Part shown: in pieces, positions 7,133 to 34,081 of the stretch | Layout: each line of letters opens with the position of its first letter | How positions within the stretch are numbered: the first letter of the stretch is position 1 | Position numbers and translations under genes: made by a program | The notes under the pieces: generated by a model | Seen by the model: only the letters and a program-made list of their open reading frames with translations | What the model was told of the DNA's origin: nothing | The model's database searches: none | Assembly: GCA_002922725.1 (NCBI GenBank) | Contig: PNEW01000011.1 | Span: 1 to 34,081, forward strand | Direction: 5' to 3' | Origin: Verrucomicrobia bacterium Opi.OSU.00C | GTDB lineage: Bacteria; Verrucomicrobiota; Verrucomicrobiia; Opitutales; PNEW01 | Length of the DNA stretch: 34,081 nucleotides

Positions 7133-7592
7133 GTGTAAAATTTAATGAAGCCATTCAGGTAGCTTTATTGTTAAAGAACATTAAACCTTACTTATCCTAA
7201 AGTTTTGTGCCGTAAGCCGGCCCCAAAGCAGGCTTTTTTGAAGATAAAATAATTAATGGATTGTAGTAATATCCCACCCCAATTTTAGTATGTATATTAA
7301 TCTTATTGAGGGAAATTAATATTCTTTCTCATTTGTCTTAAAACAAGCCAATTAAATTGGTCTAAAAGGAAGCTTATTAAGCTCCCGCTTAGGTTTACAT
7401 ATAATATTGATTTTAATTGATCCATTTGGACTAAGAATATCTTATCCTTTATTACTTTGTTCATTATGACTACCGGATAACAGATAGGTATGCCTAGGCA
7501 AGTTTTATTTCCATAAGGGGAAACAGATATAAGTTGATTAGGAAAAGGATGCCATTGACTTGATTAAGTGGTTTATGATTATTACTTAAATA
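7133..7592. other. 460-nt intergenic region without a supported gene
   Basis: Divergent spacer between the EEP gene and thyA, so it should hold both promoters. A TTGACT hexamer at 7555-7560 could be a -35 element for thyA, but the matching -10 is poor. A 5-bp stem with a T-run at 7214-7238 and a 53-codon minus-strand frame (7303-7464) were noted but not accepted. Otherwise featureless AT-rich sequence. Confidence 0.5.
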
Positions 7593-8394
7593 ATGCGACA
7601 ATATCACGAACTACTTAAGTGTATTTTGAGAAAAGGAAAGCCCCGAAAAGATAGAACTGGCGTTGGGACACACTCACTATTCGGTATACAATCCCGTTAT
7701 AATATAGCTGAAGGCTTTCCTCTTCTCACAACCAAAAAAGTGCATTTTAAATCAATCGTTCACGAACTACTTTGGTTTCTCAAAGGGTGTAGCAATCTTA
7801 AATATCTACACGACAATAAAGTTAGGATTTGGGACGAATGGGCTGATGAGAATGGAGATTTAGGTCGCGTCTATGGTGTTCAGTGGATAGCCTGGCGCAA
7901 ACCTAATGGAGATTCAATAAATCAAATCGAAAATGTAATTGAACAGATTAAATCTGATCCTACGAGCCGACGTCATATCGTCAGTGCTTGGAATGTAGGT
8001 GAACTTGATCAAATGGCCTTGTTACCTTGTCACGCTTTTTTTTCAATTTTATGTCGATACCGATGAACGAACATTAAGTTGTCATCTCTATCAACGTAGT
8101 GCTGATCTGTTTCTCGGGGTTCCGTTCAACATTGCTTCATATTCTTTACTCACGATGATGATCGCCCAACTATGCGATCTTAATCCAGGAGAGTTCATCC
8201 ATTCTTTTGGAGATTTACATATTTACAACAACCATATTGAGCAAGTGAAACTCCAGCTTTCACGCGATTGTCGCCCATTACCTAAAGTTAAGCTCAATCC
8301 TAGAATTAAAAACATGCGGGATTTTAAATTCGAGGATATCGAACTTCATAATTACAATCCACATCCCCCGATTAAAGCTCCTATTGCAGTATGA
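7593..8394 (+). CDS. thyA: thymidylate synthase ThyA, interrupted by a +1 frameshift
   Basis: Catalyses dUMP plus methylene-THF to dTMP plus DHF. The first 150 codons are read in one frame, with [22 protein letters not shown], the phosphate-binding SRRHI (125-129) and the active-site LLPCHAFF (Cys146). The rest ([19 protein letters not shown], then [19 protein letters not shown], and the C-terminal PIKAPIAV) follows in another frame. The switch falls in a run of eight T at 8036-8043; seven T restore one 266-residue protein, the normal ThyA size. As written, the product would lack half the active site. Either a base-calling error or transcriptional slippage on T8 is likely. The stop overlaps the folA start by 4 nt (ATGA), so the two are translationally coupled. 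Confidence 0.93.
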
Positions 8395-11863: not shown

Positions 11864-12983
11864 TTATTTGATTTTTATTAAGTTTTCCAAAGCAGCTAGT
11901 AACAGATTTACATGGTTTTCAGAACTGCTACAACCCATAAGACCTATACGCCAGACCTTGCCAGCATAATCGCCCAAGCCACCTCCTATTTCAATATTGT
12001 ATTCATTTAGTAAGCGGCGTCGGGAGGCGAGATCTTCTAATCCAGAAGGGATCTTAACTGCATTAAGATGAGGGATCCGATATTCAGGTGCTACAATAAA
12101 CTCGAATCCAAGCTTCTCTAATCCCTCACGCAGGTACCCATGGTTTTTCAAGTGTCTGGCAAAACAGGCGTCTAAGCCCTCTTCAAGAATAATTCTTAAT
12201 GCTTCATACAATGCATAAAAGGATGAAACAGGTGCTGTATGGTGATACATCCGTTCTTCGCCCCAATATTTTTTTAATAAATTTAAATCCAAAAAACCAA
12301 CTATTCACTTTACTTTTGCGCCTTTCAATCACATCTACAGCCTTCGAACTAAATGAAACAGGGGCCAATCCAGGAGGAGCACTTATGCATTTCTGGGAAC
12401 AGCTGTAAATGGCATCGATCCCTCTTTCGTCAACGCGTACGTCGACTCCACCCAACGAGGTTACAGCATCTACTAGAAAAAGTGCACCAGCCTCATGAAC
12501 TATTTGACTGATTTCATCAAGTGGTTGCAAAACTCCAGTCGATGTTTCGGCATGAACAATAGCAACCAGTTTCGCTTTACAGGTTCCAAGTGCCTTGTGA
12601 ACTTGTTCCGGCTCTATGGGAGAACCCCATGGTGCATCAACTCGTATTAAATTCCCACCACAACGTTCGACGATATCGCTCATTCGGTTACCAAAAAATC
12701 CATTCACACAAATAATAACGTCATCACCCGGTTCAATGAGATTAACCAAACCGGCTTCCATTCCCGCACTGGCAGGTGCAGGTAGGGCGAAAGTGAGTTC
12801 ATTTTTAGTACCGAATACCCTCCTAATCATGACCATGAGCTCATCCATAATGCTAAGGTACTCAGGGTCTAAGTGTCCAAGTAGTGGGGCAGCCATAGCC
12901 CGCAAAACTCGGGGATGGACATCACTTGGACCAGGACCCATTAAAATGCGTGGGGTTGGATTAAGTTCCTTATTTTTAATCAT
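11864..12983 (-). CDS. class V aminotransferase (alanine/serine-glyoxylate type), interrupted by a +1 frameshift
   Basis: Residues 1-230 are read from ATG 12983, with MGPGPSDVHPRVL, the VDAVTSLGG block (Asp172, cofactor contact) and SCSQKC (PLP lysine 198) followed by APPGLAPV. The remaining 142 residues, starting LDLNLLKKYWGEERMYHHTA, continue in a shifted frame. The join is in an A6 run at 12291-12296 on the given strand (T6 in the gene); five bases restore a 372-residue protein, normal for AGXT/serine-pyruvate transaminases. These PLP enzymes transfer amino groups among alanine, serine and glyoxylate. The gene is 1 nt upstream of the 2-hydroxyacid dehydrogenase, so an operon is nearly certain. 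The break is probably a sequencing error. Confidence 0.9.
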
Positions 12984-15531: not shown

Positions 15532-16740
15532 TTAAGGGTTACTAGCGATTTTAAATTTTTGATAGAGACGGGTAGTATTTTTGTGTGCATCTGCATTTTC
15601 TTCTACCCAATGACGTCCATTCATTCGGATTTTATTGTATAGCTCATCATTATTCATGAGAACTGTAATCGCATTTATCCAAGCTTGACTTTCCGATTGC
15701 TCGACAATCAATCCATTTTCTTTTGAAGTAATAACTTCGGATATTCCAGGATGGGCGGCAGCAATAACCGGCAAACCCGAAGCCATAGCTTCCAGTATCA
15801 CATTAGGTGTCCCATCACGATTACCATCAACAGCAATTCTTGTCGTGTAGAGGAAAATATCCGCCCAGCGATACTGTTCAAAAACCGCCTCATTATCAAC
15901 ATAACCCATGAGTTCCACGTAATGGTTAATATCAAGTTCCTTAATTCTCTCGCTCATTATATTTTCCATTGGACCGGACCCCACTATTTTAGCTTTGAAA
16001 GAAAACTCTTGTTTCAACAACTCAGCATAGATATCAATTTGTCGTAATTGATCTTTTTTCTCAACCAGCCTTCCGACACTTAAAATTCTGAGGGGATGAC
16101 TGACAATGCGCTTTGTTTTTAACTTCGGATAAAAGTTCAGCCCGCGCCTGATGATTACGATATTATTTTTATTTGCACCCTTTTCAATTAAATGACGGGC
16201 GGCAGCCTCAGTAGTTGTGTGGATAAAGACGGACTCTATGAGTTTTTCAGGTAACAACCAATCGCCACCATTAGCATATATATCAAAAGCATGAGCCCCC
16301 ATAGAAAATGGTGTACCAGTCAGTTTAGATAAAAGTAAGGCGGCGGTCGCAGGCATTGTAGCCCAAGGTGCATGGAAAAGCGCAGGTCTTTTCCGATTAA
16401 ATCTTCTCGCATAAAGGATAGCAAAACATATCCCAATAAAAACTTCGCCTGCATTACGAATTGATGGCATCCTCCTTTGCTTTAAACCTGAAAAAATATC
16501 GTAGAAAGCTTTGGGGTTCTTCACTATCCAATAAGGGAAAAGTACCCCCAGAAAGATAAGCTTCCATTTGGCGAATCGAAATACCTTTATCCCATTATAT
16601 AATTTATCTCCACCCCATAGCGAAAATATTTCAAGTTGCACAGGAAGTTTATATATTGCCTGGATCTCCCTTTGCAAAAATGTTTCTGTTGCAACAGGAA
16701 AAGTAGTAAATAAGTAAGTGATTTTAAGGGGCTTTGTCAT
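15532..16740 (-). CDS. glycosyltransferase family 4 (WcaL/colanic acid type)
   Basis: 402 residues with the GT-B layout. The N-terminal half has TFPVATETFLQREI, typical of colanic-acid/exopolysaccharide glycosyltransferases, and FHAPWATMPATAALLLSKLTG. The C-terminal half has LRILSVGRLVEKK and the donor-binding DGTPNVILEAMASGLPVIA with the EX7E-like acidic pair. It probably transfers a hexose from a nucleotide sugar to an envelope glycan or lipid acceptor. Convergent with the GT9 gene (21 nt apart) and downstream of the ketosynthase gene on the same strand (59-nt gap), so possibly in that operon. Confidence 0.9.
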   Translation of the reverse strand: MTKPLKITYLFTTFPVATETFLQREIQAIYKLPVQLEIFSLWGGDKLYNGIKVFRFAKWKLIFLGVLFPYWIVKNPKAFYDIFSGLKQRRMPSIRNAGEVFIGICFAILYARRFNRKRPALFHAPWATMPATAALLLSKLTGTPFSMGAHAFDIYANGGDWLLPEKLIESVFIHTTTEAAARHLIEKGANKNNIVIIRRGLNFYPKLKTKRIVSHPLRILSVGRLVEKKDQLRQIDIYAELLKQEFSFKAKIVGSGPMENIMSERIKELDINHYVELMGYVDNEAVFEQYRWADIFLYTTRIAVDGNRDGTPNVILEAMASGLPVIAAAHPGISEVITSKENGLIVEQSESQAWINAITVLMNNDELYNKIRMNGRHWVEENADAHKNTTRLYQKFKIASNP

Positions 16741-16799: not shown

Positions 16800-18065
16800 T
16801 CAATGCTCGGGATCACTAAAAATTAAAGAGACATTCGAACCACCAAATCCACTACTGTTACTCATCGCATGCTTTGGGGTCTTATCTAGTGTTTTCTTAA
16901 TAATATTTAATCCTTTTGCTTCTGGATCGAGTGTCTCAATATGGGCCGAACCTGGCATAAAGTTTTCTTTTATTGCGAGGACAGAAAAAGATGCTTCCAT
17001 TATACTTGCAAGTGATAAAGCATGTCCGGTCAATGCTTTAGTACTACTTATTGCAGGCTTAGAGTTATTTTTGTTAAAGACTTTTTTTAAAGCACGCATT
17101 TCCGATAAATCACCAGCAAGAGTAGAGGGAGCGTGGGCGTTAATATAATCGATGCTTTTAGGCCCAAGTTTCACTGATCCTAAAGCTCTCTCCATAGATT
17201 GAATCAACCCATTCCCTTCAGGATGAGAAAGAGCAACATGATAGCCATCAGAAGCTTGCCCCCATCCTGTGAATTCAGCATATATCTCTGCATTTCGTTT
17301 TCGTGCGATCGATTCCTCCTCCAAAATCATCACTACTGCACCTCCAGTCCCTACGAATCCATTCCTATTTTTATCAAAAGGTCGTGAAGCCCGATCCGGA
17401 TCAGATGATAAAGTTAAAACTCTCATTCCGGCAAATGGCATAATACTTAGAAAATTGCCATCTTCTCCACCAACAACAAACATGCGATCGTGGCGCCCAA
17501 GAGAAATCTCATCATAAGCGTAACCAAGCGCATGCCCTGAGGATGAGCATGCCGAAGCAAAACCACTAGACGCACCTTTTATTTTAAATGCGGCAACGAG
17601 ATTAAAATTCAACGTTCCAACAATAGATGAAATAATTCCCTGAGGTGATGCCCTCAAAACGCCAACTTTAAACATACGGTTAAGATGGTTATAAGTCATA
17701 AAAACAGAACCAGATGAAGCAGTAAATAATCCTGTTTTTGGATTTGAAATCTCATCTTCTGATAACCCGGCATCTTGAATCGCCTGAACCATGGCACAAT
17801 AAGCATATAAGCCATGGGGAGATAAGCCACGTAAGGTGTCCAGCCTTAATTTATACTGAATAGGATACGTCCAGTCCTCAGAATCCATGGATTCAGTATT
17901 AAATCCCTTAATTGGTGCTGCTAATTTTACAGGGATGTCATCTTTTTTGAAAGGCGGAAAAATTTCTATACCATGTTTCATATGGCATAAACTATCAATG
18001 ACGGTGGCTTTATCATTACCTATACTTGTAACAAAGCCCAAACCGGTGACTACTACCTTACGCAT
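16800..18065 (-). CDS. beta-ketoacyl-ACP synthase, FabF (KAS II) family
   Basis: 421 residues of the thiolase fold. The nucleophile Cys173 lies in SGFASACSSSGHALG, the catalytic His311 in NAHAPSTLAGD, Lys343 and His348 in STKALTGHALSLAS, and GFGGSN is at 406-411. The triad is intact, so it should be an active condensing enzyme using malonyl-ACP. NAHAPSTLAGD departs from the usual NAHGTSTPxGD, suggesting a specialised ketosynthase rather than the housekeeping FabF. It is 75 nt downstream of the ACP-dehydratase fusion on the same strand, its likely carrier partner. Compatible products are modified fatty acids or polyenes; nothing here fixes which. Confidence 0.9.
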   Translation of the reverse strand: MRKVVVTGLGFVTSIGNDKATVIDSLCHMKHGIEIFPPFKKDDIPVKLAAPIKGFNTESMDSEDWTYPIQYKLRLDTLRGLSPHGLYAYCAMVQAIQDAGLSEDEISNPKTGLFTASSGSVFMTYNHLNRMFKVGVLRASPQGIISSIVGTLNFNLVAAFKIKGASSGFASACSSSGHALGYAYDEISLGRHDRMFVVGGEDGNFLSIMPFAGMRVLTLSSDPDRASRPFDKNRNGFVGTGGAVVMILEEESIARKRNAEIYAEFTGWGQASDGYHVALSHPEGNGLIQSMERALGSVKLGPKSIDYINAHAPSTLAGDLSEMRALKKVFNKNNSKPAISSTKALTGHALSLASIMEASFSVLAIKENFMPGSAHIETLDPEAKGLNIIKKTLDKTPKHAMSNSSGFGGSNVSLIFSDPEH

Positions 18066-24124: not shown

Positions 24125-25475
24125 ATGAAAATAGTAATTGTCGGAGCCGGAGAGGTTGGCAGCTACTTATGTGGGATGTTAAGTGGACATGCACATGAAG
24201 TTACGCTCATCGAATCTGCGGAGAAAACAGTAAGTCGTGCGGATGAGCAATATGATGTTCGTGTTGTGGAGGGAAATGGCAGTTCGGCAGAAATACTTAA
24301 AAAAGCCGAAGTTGATGGTTGTGATTTCTTTCTCGCGATGACAAGTGACGATAAAACGAACCTAATCTCGAGCTCATTAGCCAAAGTATTGGGAGCTGGT
24401 ACGACTATAGCTCGTGTTCACGATCAAACTTATAGCGATAACTCATACCTTAATTACCAACTCCATTTTGGTATAGATATGCTTCTTAATCCCGAAGCCC
24501 TTTGTGCTGTCGAGTTAGCTAAAACGATTCGTAATCCTGGAAGAGTTGCAGTGGAAAATTTTGCAAGAGGTCAGATTGAAGTACAACAAGTGCAACTTGC
24601 TAAAAAATCCAAGCTTAAAGGTAAAACTTTAGCGGAATTAAAAATAAATCCCAAAATACGAATCGGTGCAATCCAGCGGGCTGACAAAATAGAGCTACCA
24701 ACAAGTGATTCAATTTTAGAAGTAGGTGATTGGGTAACACTATTTGGTCCACCCGACGTAATGATGGAATCACGCATTAATTTCAATCCTGATATTACCG
24801 AAAATATAGTTCGGGTTGTTCTTTTTGGGGGAGGGGAAACTTCAATTGCTCTTGTTAGATTACTTACTAACCCTAGATTTAAAATTCGTATAATTGATAG
24901 TGACCGTGAGAAATGTGACTATATAGCAAAAAAAATTCCCTCACGTCACAGTCATCAACGGAGATGCCACACGGTTGCGTTTGTTAGAAGAAGAACAGAT
25001 TGGCAGTACCGATTATTTTATCGCTTGTACTAAAGATGATGAAAATAATATAATGACCGGATTACAGTCATCAAAACTAGGAGCTGCCCATGTTCAAATT
25101 GTAATCAACAAGACCGATTATGAAGAAATCCTCGACCGCATGAAAAGTACTTTAGGTATTGAATTATCTGTCTCTCCGCGCATTGCAACAGTTAACGAAA
25201 TTATGCGCTACCTCTCACCAGAACCTTACACCGAACTTGCTGAACTACCAAATAAAGCTGGGAAAATACTAGAAATTAGGGTTAGTGGTAATAGTTCCCA
25301 GACAGGACGATTGATTAAAGATATCCCATTACCATTAAGCACGGTTTTTGTTGCCCTTCTGCATAAATTTGAAGCGGTGGTTCCTGGTGCTGAAGATATC
25401 ATTCTTGAAGGAGATCGGATAGTTGTTATAACTAAAGAAGATAGCATAAAAGAATTACTTAATTTGTTCACTTAA
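24125..25475 (+). CDS. trkA: Trk potassium uptake regulator TrkA, interrupted by a +1 frameshift
   Basis: Peripheral NAD-binding subunit of the Trk K+ system. The first RCK module has IVGAGEVGSYL (5-15), and NGSSAEIL is followed by MTSDDKTNL. A second Rossmann start, VVLFGGGETSIALVRLL, follows the first TrkA_C domain. The frame breaks at an A8 run (24928-24935). With seven A the text continues KKFPHVTVINGDATRLRLL into LEEEQIGSTDYFIACTKDDENN, giving a normal 449-residue TrkA with a second TrkA_C domain at the end. The break is probably a sequencing error. trkH follows 100 nt downstream on the same strand. Confidence 0.93.
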
Positions 25476-31236: not shown

Positions 31237-32076
31237 TTATTTCCAAGCAAAAAAATAGCGATTGCGAAAACTGAAATCTACTCGTGAATCCCAGTGCCTA
31301 AATCCCTTTTTAATAGCTATCTTTTTTAATACTGGGTGATGGTTAATGCCTGTCTCCATCGCTACCAGTCCTCCTTCATTTAAATAATTTAAAGCGTGTG
31401 AGAGGATATGCTTTAACTCATTCACCCCATTACCTTCTGCGACAAGCGCTGCGCGTGGTTCAAATTTATTAATTTCTGGTTGGGATTCATTCCATTCAAG
31501 CTCCGATAGGTAAGGAGGATTGGCCACAATCAAATCAAATTTTTCTTCAATATTATTAAACCAATGGGATTTTAAGATCTCAATACGATTGTGTAGCCCG
31601 GACCTTTTTATATTATCGCGCGCCAGAGAGAGGGCTTCATCACTGGTGTCAACTGCAAGTAATCGTGACTCAGGGTAATGTATCGCCAAAGCTAATACTA
31701 TAGCGCCACTTCCGGTACCAAGATCTAAAATTTTATTTGGAACACGATCCTTACCCTTAATAATAAGATCAATTAATTCTTCTGTCTCTGGCCTAGGGAT
31801 AAGCACACGATGATCAACCCTCAAATTAAGGCTAAAAAAATCTACTTCTCCTAATATATATTGCCATGGTTCACGTTTTCCTCTCCGTCTTACTAGATTG
31901 CGGATCTGATCCAAGTTCTCTGAGTCCAAGGGGCGATCGTATTGCAAATAGAGATCCAAGCGATTCAGATTCAATGCTTTCCCTATAATAATTTCTGCAT
32001 TCAGGCGAGCATTCTCTATTCTTTTAGTTGAAAAGAATAGTGTCGTCTTTTGGATTGCATCTATAAGGGTAATCAT
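31237..32076 (-). CDS. prmC: peptide chain release factor N5-glutamine methyltransferase PrmC
   Basis: 279 residues. It methylates the glutamine of the GGQ motif of release factors using SAM. An N-terminal helical domain is followed by REPWQYILGEVDF (68-80), the SAM-binding [15 protein letters not shown] (117-131), AVDTSDEAL (141-149) and the catalytic NPPY (186-189). It lies 58 nt downstream of prfA, its substrate's gene, in the common prfA-prmC order. Residues about 110-149 are encoded by the stretch duplicated in inverted form at the right edge of the window. Confidence 0.97.
   Translation of the reverse strand: MITLIDAIQKTTLFFSTKRIENARLNAEIIIGKALNLNRLDLYLQYDRPLDSENLDQIRNLVRRRGKREPWQYILGEVDFFSLNLRVDHRVLIPRPETEELIDLIIKGKDRVPNKILDLGTGSGAIVLALAIHYPESRLLAVDTSDEALSLARDNIKRSGLHNRIEILKSHWFNNIEEKFDLIVANPPYLSELEWNESQPEINKFEPRAALVAEGNGVNELKHILSHALNYLNEGGLVAMETGINHHPVLKKIAIKKGFRHWDSRVDFSFRNRYFFAWK
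31628..31751 (-). repeat. inverted duplicate, original copy within prmC
   Basis: These 124 bases recur exactly, reverse complemented, at 33958-34081. Position x here pairs with 65709-x. Here they form an unbroken part of the prmC methyltransferase domain, so this is the authentic copy. Confidence 0.95.
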
Positions 32077-32134: not shown

Positions 32135-33226
32135 TTAATTTTTTTCAGGTGAAAGCAATTCTTCTATTTTCAGTTTTTGATCAGTATCTTGGAGAGAATG
32201 AATCACTTCATCTAAATTACCCTCCATAATATCAGGAAGGTTATATAAAGTAAGTCCAATACGATGATCGGTAAGACGGCTTTGAGGGAAATTATAGGTC
32301 CTAATACGTTCACTTCGATCGCCACTTCCAATTTGACTGCGGCGATCTTGGGCATAACGCATCCTTTCCTCCTCTTCTTTTTTGTGCAATAATCGAGCGC
32401 GTAATACTTTCATCCCTTTTTGTTTATTCTTCAATTGTGAACGTTCATCTGCACAATTAACAATTAACCCGGAAGGCTTATGAAGGATTTGTACTGCCGA
32501 ATCTGTTGTATTAACACCTTGTCCCCCAGGACCGCTTGCCCGACAAACTGAAAATTCTAGGTCAGCTGGATCAAGATGAACATCGACATCTTCAGCTTCC
32601 GGAAGCACAGCCACAGTTGATGTAGAAGTATGGATGCGCCCATTAGTCTCAGTTACAGGTATGCGTTGAACGCGGTGCACGCCACTCTCAAATTTCAAGT
32701 ATTTATAAACTTCATCACCTCTTAAGTTGAAAACTACTTCTTTAAATCCACCCGCTTCCGAGACACTTGTACCTAGCTTCTCAACTTTCCATCCATGTTT
32801 TTCAGCATAGCGGACATACATTCTATACAGATCGGCAGCAAATAGTGAGGCTTCATTTCCACCGGCTCCAGCACGAATTTCGACTATAGTATTTCGAGAA
32901 TCGCTTTTATCAGGTGGCAGCATAGAGAATAGAACGTCACTATGTAAAACTTCCGCTTGTTGACGTATTATAGAAATTTCATCTTCTGCCATTTGTTTAA
33001 TATCTAGATCACTTCCAGGATCATCGACAATTGCTTGAATTTCCTTAATCTGCTGACCCTTGTTTTCTAGTTCACTGTAAAGAGCAAGTAATTTACTAAG
33101 ATTCTGATGTTCGCGTGTTAGATCCACTGCCCGTCGTGCATCCTGATAAAAGTCAGGCTCCGCCATCTGTGCATCAATTTCTTCGAAACGCTTGCGAAAT
33201 GGGTTAATATCAGGTAGAGATTTCAT
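32135..33226 (-). CDS. prfA: peptide chain release factor 1
   Basis: 363 residues. RF1 rather than RF2: the codon-recognition tripeptide region reads IPVTETNGRIHTS (PxT type, for UAA/UAG), not the SPF of RF2. The peptidyl-tRNA hydrolysis motif GGQ is at 234-236 in SGPGGQGVNTTDSAVQI. The N-terminal domain has EIRAGAGGNEASLFAADLYRMY (117-138). No frameshift, and no UGA-dependent autoregulation site of the RF2 kind. It diverges from the HAD gene across 88 nt. Confidence 0.97.
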   Translation of the reverse strand: MKSLPDINPFRKRFEEIDAQMAEPDFYQDARRAVDLTREHQNLSKLLALYSELENKGQQIKEIQAIVDDPGSDLDIKQMAEDEISIIRQQAEVLHSDVLFSMLPPDKSDSRNTIVEIRAGAGGNEASLFAADLYRMYVRYAEKHGWKVEKLGTSVSEAGGFKEVVFNLRGDEVYKYLKFESGVHRVQRIPVTETNGRIHTSTSTVAVLPEAEDVDVHLDPADLEFSVCRASGPGGQGVNTTDSAVQILHKPSGLIVNCADERSQLKNKQKGMKVLRARLLHKKEEEERMRYAQDRRSQIGSGDRSERIRTYNFPQSRLTDHRIGLTLYNLPDIMEGNLDEVIHSLQDTDQKLKIEELLSPEKN

Positions 33227-33314: not shown

Positions 33315-34081
33315 ATGGCTGATAACAACCTTCATAGTCGAAACATTGTCGCCTGTATCTGGGATTTCGACAAGACTTTAATTCCCGGTTATATGCAAAC
33401 TCCCTTATTTGAGCAATATAACATCGATGAAAAAAAATTCTGGGAAGAGGTTAGTCGGCTGCCAAATATTTACAAAAAAAAAGGCATTAATGTAAGCAAA
33501 GATACCGTTTATCTAAATCACTTGCTAAGTTATGTTCGAACGGGGATAATGAAAGGCCTAAACAATGCCATTTTAAGGGAATTAGGTTCTAAGCTCCAAT
33601 ATTATCCAGGATTACCTGAAATTTTCCATGACTTGAAAGAACTTGTACGCAGTAATAATGAATCTGGGACTCATGATATAACCCTTGAACATTACATTAT
33701 TAGCACCGGCTTAGCAGAAATTATTCGAGGAAGTTCCATCGCGACTTATGTTGACGGAATTTACGGATGTGAATTTGTTGAAAGCCCTCTTCCTCCAGGT
33801 TTTCTAAACCAAGAAGAGCTACCACTCGCAACAAAGCAAGAAATAAGTCAGATCGGAACAATGGTGGATAATACTATCAAGACACGATTCATTTTTGAAA
33901 TAAATAAAGGGTCAAATAAAGATTCCGAAATTGACGTAAACGCTGTCATTCGTAATGAGGATCGTGTTCCAAATAAAATTTTAGATCTTGGTACCGGAAG
34001 TGGCGCTATAGTATTAGCTTTGGCGATACATTACCCTGAGTCACGATTACTTGCAGTTGACACCAGTGATGAAGCCCTCTC
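33315..34081 (+). CDS. HAD-superfamily phosphatase, partial and chimeric at its 3' end
   Basis: Open from ATG 33315 to the edge. [10 protein letters not shown] carries the HAD motif I nucleophile and acid (Asp17, Asp19). A helical cap follows, then [15 protein letters not shown] (motif II region), VDGIYGCEF and [12 protein letters not shown] with the motif III lysine. This set resembles a HAD hydrolase family that I recall from Verrucomicrobiota; the substrate is unknown. The expected motif IV (an ADGPSD-type acidic loop after DRVPF) is missing: from Arg217/Val218 on, the text is prmC sequence ([12 protein letters not shown]). True HAD sequence therefore ends at about 33958-33970, and the rest is an artefactual join. 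There is no Shine-Dalgarno sequence. Confidence 0.85.
33958..34081 (+). repeat. inverted duplicate of prmC, chimeric copy at the window edge
   Basis: Exact reverse complement of 31628-31751 over 124 of 124 bases, running to the last base of the window. It is joined in frame to the HAD gene at a point where both proteins would read DRVP. The shared AGGATCGTGTTCC is a plausible microhomology for template switching. Confidence 0.95.

Follow-up and report, generated by a model that had tools for sequence, protein, structure and literature searches.

Background

The closest described counterparts of the junction reported here are the chimeras formed during multiple displacement amplification (MDA) with phi29. 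Lasken and Stockwell (2007; PMC1855051) described 475 MDA chimeras obtained by amplifying one E. coli cell; 85% were inverted, and in 83% of the inverted chimeras the distance between the two segments was below 10 kb. Priming by the displaced 3′ end on 2–21 complementary bases accounted for most of the chimeras, and the authors proposed a model in which the 3′ end is displaced by branch migration and then misprimes on a nearby displaced strand.

The sequence analysed here (the window, 34,081 nt) is the whole of contig C11 (PNEW01000011.1) from an assembly of 2.05 Mb in 287 contigs, estimated to be 82.6% complete. Because the window is a complete contig, the inverted repeat described below reaches a true contig end. 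We interpret this end as an in-vitro chimera of the MDA (phi29) type, with a probability of roughly 94%.

The inverted copy at the contig end

Self-comparison of the window showed that its last 124 nt, 33958–34081 (+ strand), are the reverse complement of 31628–31751 (− strand) at 124 of 124 nt (BLAST E = 2e-58), with 2206 nt separating the two arms; the mismatch-free inverted copy claimed in the original prediction is thus real. The longest exact inverted match was 14–20 nt in ten shuffles of the window and 16 nt once the last 124 nt of the window were removed, which excludes chance as the origin of the 124-nt copy.

The source segment lies within a genuine prmC gene (31237–32076, − strand) for peptide chain release factor N5-glutamine methyltransferase, assigned by TIGR03534 (RF_mod_PrmC, NCBIfam; 255 bits against a cut-off of 199) and a PrmC_N domain. 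The neighbouring prfA gene (32135–33226, − strand) is of the peptide chain release factor 1 type, with PCRF and RF-1 domains. Divergent from prfA is a HAD-like phosphatase gene (33315 onward, + strand), whose genuine 5′ part (33315–33957, about 214 codons) was recognised from its homologues and carries motif I as DFDKT. An open frame from 33315 to 34079 passes from this HAD-like N-terminal part into PrmC, and residues ~203–255 of the fusion match PrmC/HemK models in a profile search; the copied prmC segment itself stops at the contig end.

The HAD-like gene and its missing 3′ half

Homologues of the HAD-like protein are about 340 aa long and share 53–69% identity with residues 1–214 of the window protein. 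Past the join, they read (D/E/A)RR(V/I)P...(I/V/M)Y.ADGPSDVP, a stretch that represents the acidic HAD motif IV region. None of them reads PrmC there, whereas the window reads PrmC in place of the HAD C-terminal part. A genuine HAD–PrmC fusion protein conserved in relatives was therefore not found, since the homologues carry ADGPSD and the HAD C-terminal part instead. Aligning the gene with its homologues, a check proposed earlier, placed the end of homology at the join. Judging from the homologues, the real HAD-like gene should run approximately 120–130 codons further. However, when the closest relative's C-terminal part was searched against the assembly, the best E was only 0.09, showing that the assembly lacks the native 3′ half of this gene. 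A full-length relative gave a weak Pfam HAD match below the cut-off, and the HAD part of the window protein found no meaningful relative among PDB sequences.

The closest relatives by sequence belong to the Opitutia/Puniceicoccales (Verrucomicrobiota), and the order prmC–prfA–HAD is kept in relatives. Where prfA or prmC was found near the HAD gene of a relative, both lie upstream on the opposite strand, and in none of the relatives' loci does prmC follow the HAD gene within the short flanks (~1.5 kb). The switch from HAD to PrmC had been called biologically meaningless in the original prediction, a view that these loci bear out: about 105 homologues continue as normal HAD proteins, and the relatives' prmC occurs only on the other side of prfA.

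The sequence alone, with its frame open across the join, is compatible with a real and recent inverted duplication in the sampled cell or population, in which part of prmC truncates a conserved HAD-like gene as one of many such events. Nonetheless, 39 of 52 relatives have kept the HAD gene and no relative shows the arrangement, and we regard such a duplication as extremely improbable, the more so given the recurrence described below. The HAD–PrmC fusion gene is a laboratory artefact of a known type, not a new gene.

The junction and a possible route to it

A 13-mer, AGGATCGTGTTCC, occurs exactly at both 31739–31751 (−) and 33958–33970 (+), and a microhomology of roughly 13 nt at 33958–33970 had been suggested on this ground. 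We infer the length of the truly shared stretch from homologues, because the native continuation is missing from the assembly. The motif was recognised in 106 homologues, 105 of which have two Arg codons (RR) at this place, whereas the window has one R. The bases after the first Arg codon of the native gene should therefore differ from prmC, which argues against a native origin for all 13 nt. Of 104 homologues, 98 use CGN for the first Arg codon of the pair. A native gene reading GAG GAT CGN, followed by C or A, would share AGGATCG(T) with prmC, and only AGGAT, 5 nt, would be shared if the native Arg codon were AGR. Provided that RR also stands in the native gene, HAD and prmC thus probably share AGGATCG(T) at the join (33958–33965, +), a stretch common to prmC (−) and the window and 7–8 nt long (range 5–8). 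The HAD family had also been expected to read DRVPF and then an acidic motif IV; the motif IV region does follow, as ADGPSD, whereas the expected native reading before it is DRRVP or DRRIP.

The C11 junction probably originated by mispriming of a 3′ end. A nascent + strand would reach approximately position 33965 in the HAD gene, where its 3′ end would be displaced by branch migration. Within prmC, at 31751, the displaced end could then pair through AGGATCG(T) with another displaced strand close by, and its extension would run back toward lower coordinates. Reads from the resulting chimera would lengthen the contig by 124 nt, and the assembly would stop there because the sequence re-enters a region that is already assembled, leaving the HAD gene's native 3′ half out of the assembly.

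Recurrence at other contig ends

Each of 61 of the 287 contigs, i.e., the window and 60 others (C30–C89), was compared with itself; the contigs were picked by contig number and thus roughly by size. A terminal pair was defined as a segment within 25 nt of a contig end that recurs, inverted, in the interior of that contig. Exact or nearly exact terminal inverted copies were found in 20 of the 61 contigs (C11 included), giving 21 pairs with copies of 41–139 nt and gaps of 172–7775 nt (median 1935). All 21 pairs are inverted, and no direct-orientation pairs of at least 30 nt and at least 95% identity were present in the checked contigs; nor were the segments of the 21 pairs found on other checked contigs. 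In the imperfect copies, most differences, as read from their positions, lie at the junction side, where the BLAST alignment overruns the true join, and by the same reading three of the 21 pairs differ internally by one mismatch or by an indel of 1 nt, a point that counts against the chimera reading.

These pairs bear on two of the alternatives. A real duplication would need 20 independent inverted duplications, all placed exactly at contig ends, and the copies are identical or nearly so. Alternatively, the end repeats could be a pure k-mer overlap left by the assembler, of fixed length k at a repeat or branch of the graph, with no chimeric molecule behind them. The identity that runs exactly to the last base of the contig would suit such an overlap. 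However, the copies in the 21 pairs are of differing length (41–139 nt), the source at C11 is a single-copy prmC, and a path from HAD into inverted prmC would still need reads that contain the join. We therefore reject this explanation, to which we assign a negligible likelihood, and retain the in-vitro chimera.

Other end structures were seen in the same comparison. Contig L162 carries inverted chimeric copies at both ends (1–83 with 7147–7229, and 17628–17676 with 16319–16367). Both ends of L139 were first counted as terminal pairs and then dropped, as they consist of a dispersed repeat common to at least nine other contigs. This repeat (~120–237 nt, 95–100% alike) occupies 1–236 and 10920–11156 of L139 and is also found at the ends of L129, L130, L145 and L163 and near the start of L146; its position at contig ends probably reflects that it breaks the assembly. 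Rfam gave no family for the repeat in L139, L145 and L130, the only hits being two tRNAs elsewhere. Finally, L130 contains an internal self-complementary palindromic stretch of 162 nt (7621–7782, 95%), unlike the terminal chimeric pairs.

Control genomes

Three fragmented relatives served as controls. No terminal inverted pairs were found in 18 contigs of G036 (~410 contigs), and 20 contigs of G045 and G005 together yielded no terminal pairs and only one internal inverted pair of 31 nt. The contrast between 20 of 61 contigs in the present assembly and 0 of 38 in the three relatives (Fisher's exact p = 1.7e-5) strongly supports the MDA-type chimera proposed in the original prediction, as the junctions recur at many unrelated loci of one sample. 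In G052, reported to be a single-cell genome (isolate AG-913-J04) and taken as a positive control, 14 contig starts and five whole contigs were also free of terminal pairs. This counts against the MDA reading in so far as it shows that not every single-cell assembly has ends of this kind and that assembly or trimming practice matters.

Inverted chimeras can also arise in vitro where no MDA is involved, through fold-back or ligation artefacts while a library is being prepared. Protocols of other kinds could yield the same geometry by template switching, and inverted chimeric reads are described from ligation-prepared nanopore libraries as well (PMC13141652). However, the spacing of 0.17–7.8 kb, the uniformly inverted orientation and the probably short junction homology closely match the published MDA data, and chimeric paths that dominate at a third of the contigs would suit the very uneven coverage of whole-genome amplification. 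Chimeras of non-MDA origin fit less well than MDA, and we consider them very unlikely. That MDA itself was applied to this sample is what these junctions suggest.

Data quality and consequences for annotation

Three other genes in the window are broken. In the thymidylate synthase gene (7593–8394), two overlapping frames meet at a T8 run at ~8037–8044, which looks like a +1 homopolymer error. A class V aminotransferase gene (11864–12983, − strand) is split into two frames near 12290, beside T6/A6 runs, and the gene of a TrkA-type potassium uptake protein (24125–25475) is split into two frames near 24925–24980, with an adjoining A-rich run; both are likely indel errors. Indel errors of the homopolymer type are typical of pyrosequencing or low-coverage data. 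The three apparent single-base indels, at or beside homopolymers, are independent signs of raw-data quality and point in the same direction as the artefact reading.

The apparent fusion ORF should stay unannotated, and the contig is to be trimmed at approximately 33957. The conclusion that such ends are artefacts should extend from C11 to the whole assembly, and the same trimming is called for at its other ends with inverted interior copies. Left untrimmed, these ends give rise to spurious fusion proteins and spurious inverted repeats; their importance is one of quality control only.

Comparison with known systems

Like the palindromic reads described in PMC13265396 for MDA long-read assemblies, the ends reported here are inverted self-copies that compromise assembly. 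That report concerns reads of tardigrade DNA, whereas the present case is a bacterial assembly in which only the last 41–139 nt of contigs are affected.

The ends also resemble the phi29 MDA chimeras of PMC1855051: the C11 join agrees with these in its orientation, in the distance bridged and in the probable length of its microhomology. As in that study, the junctions are inverted, are spaced in the kilobase range (all below 10 kb) and occur independently at many sites of one assembly; the join at C11 probably also involves short complementarity. Two differences are to be noted. First, the published chimeras were seen in individual reads, whereas those described here are assembled contig ends, so that only junctions at contig ends are visible. 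Second, the method of amplification is deduced here from the junctions themselves, whereas the published chimeras come from a cell amplified by MDA.
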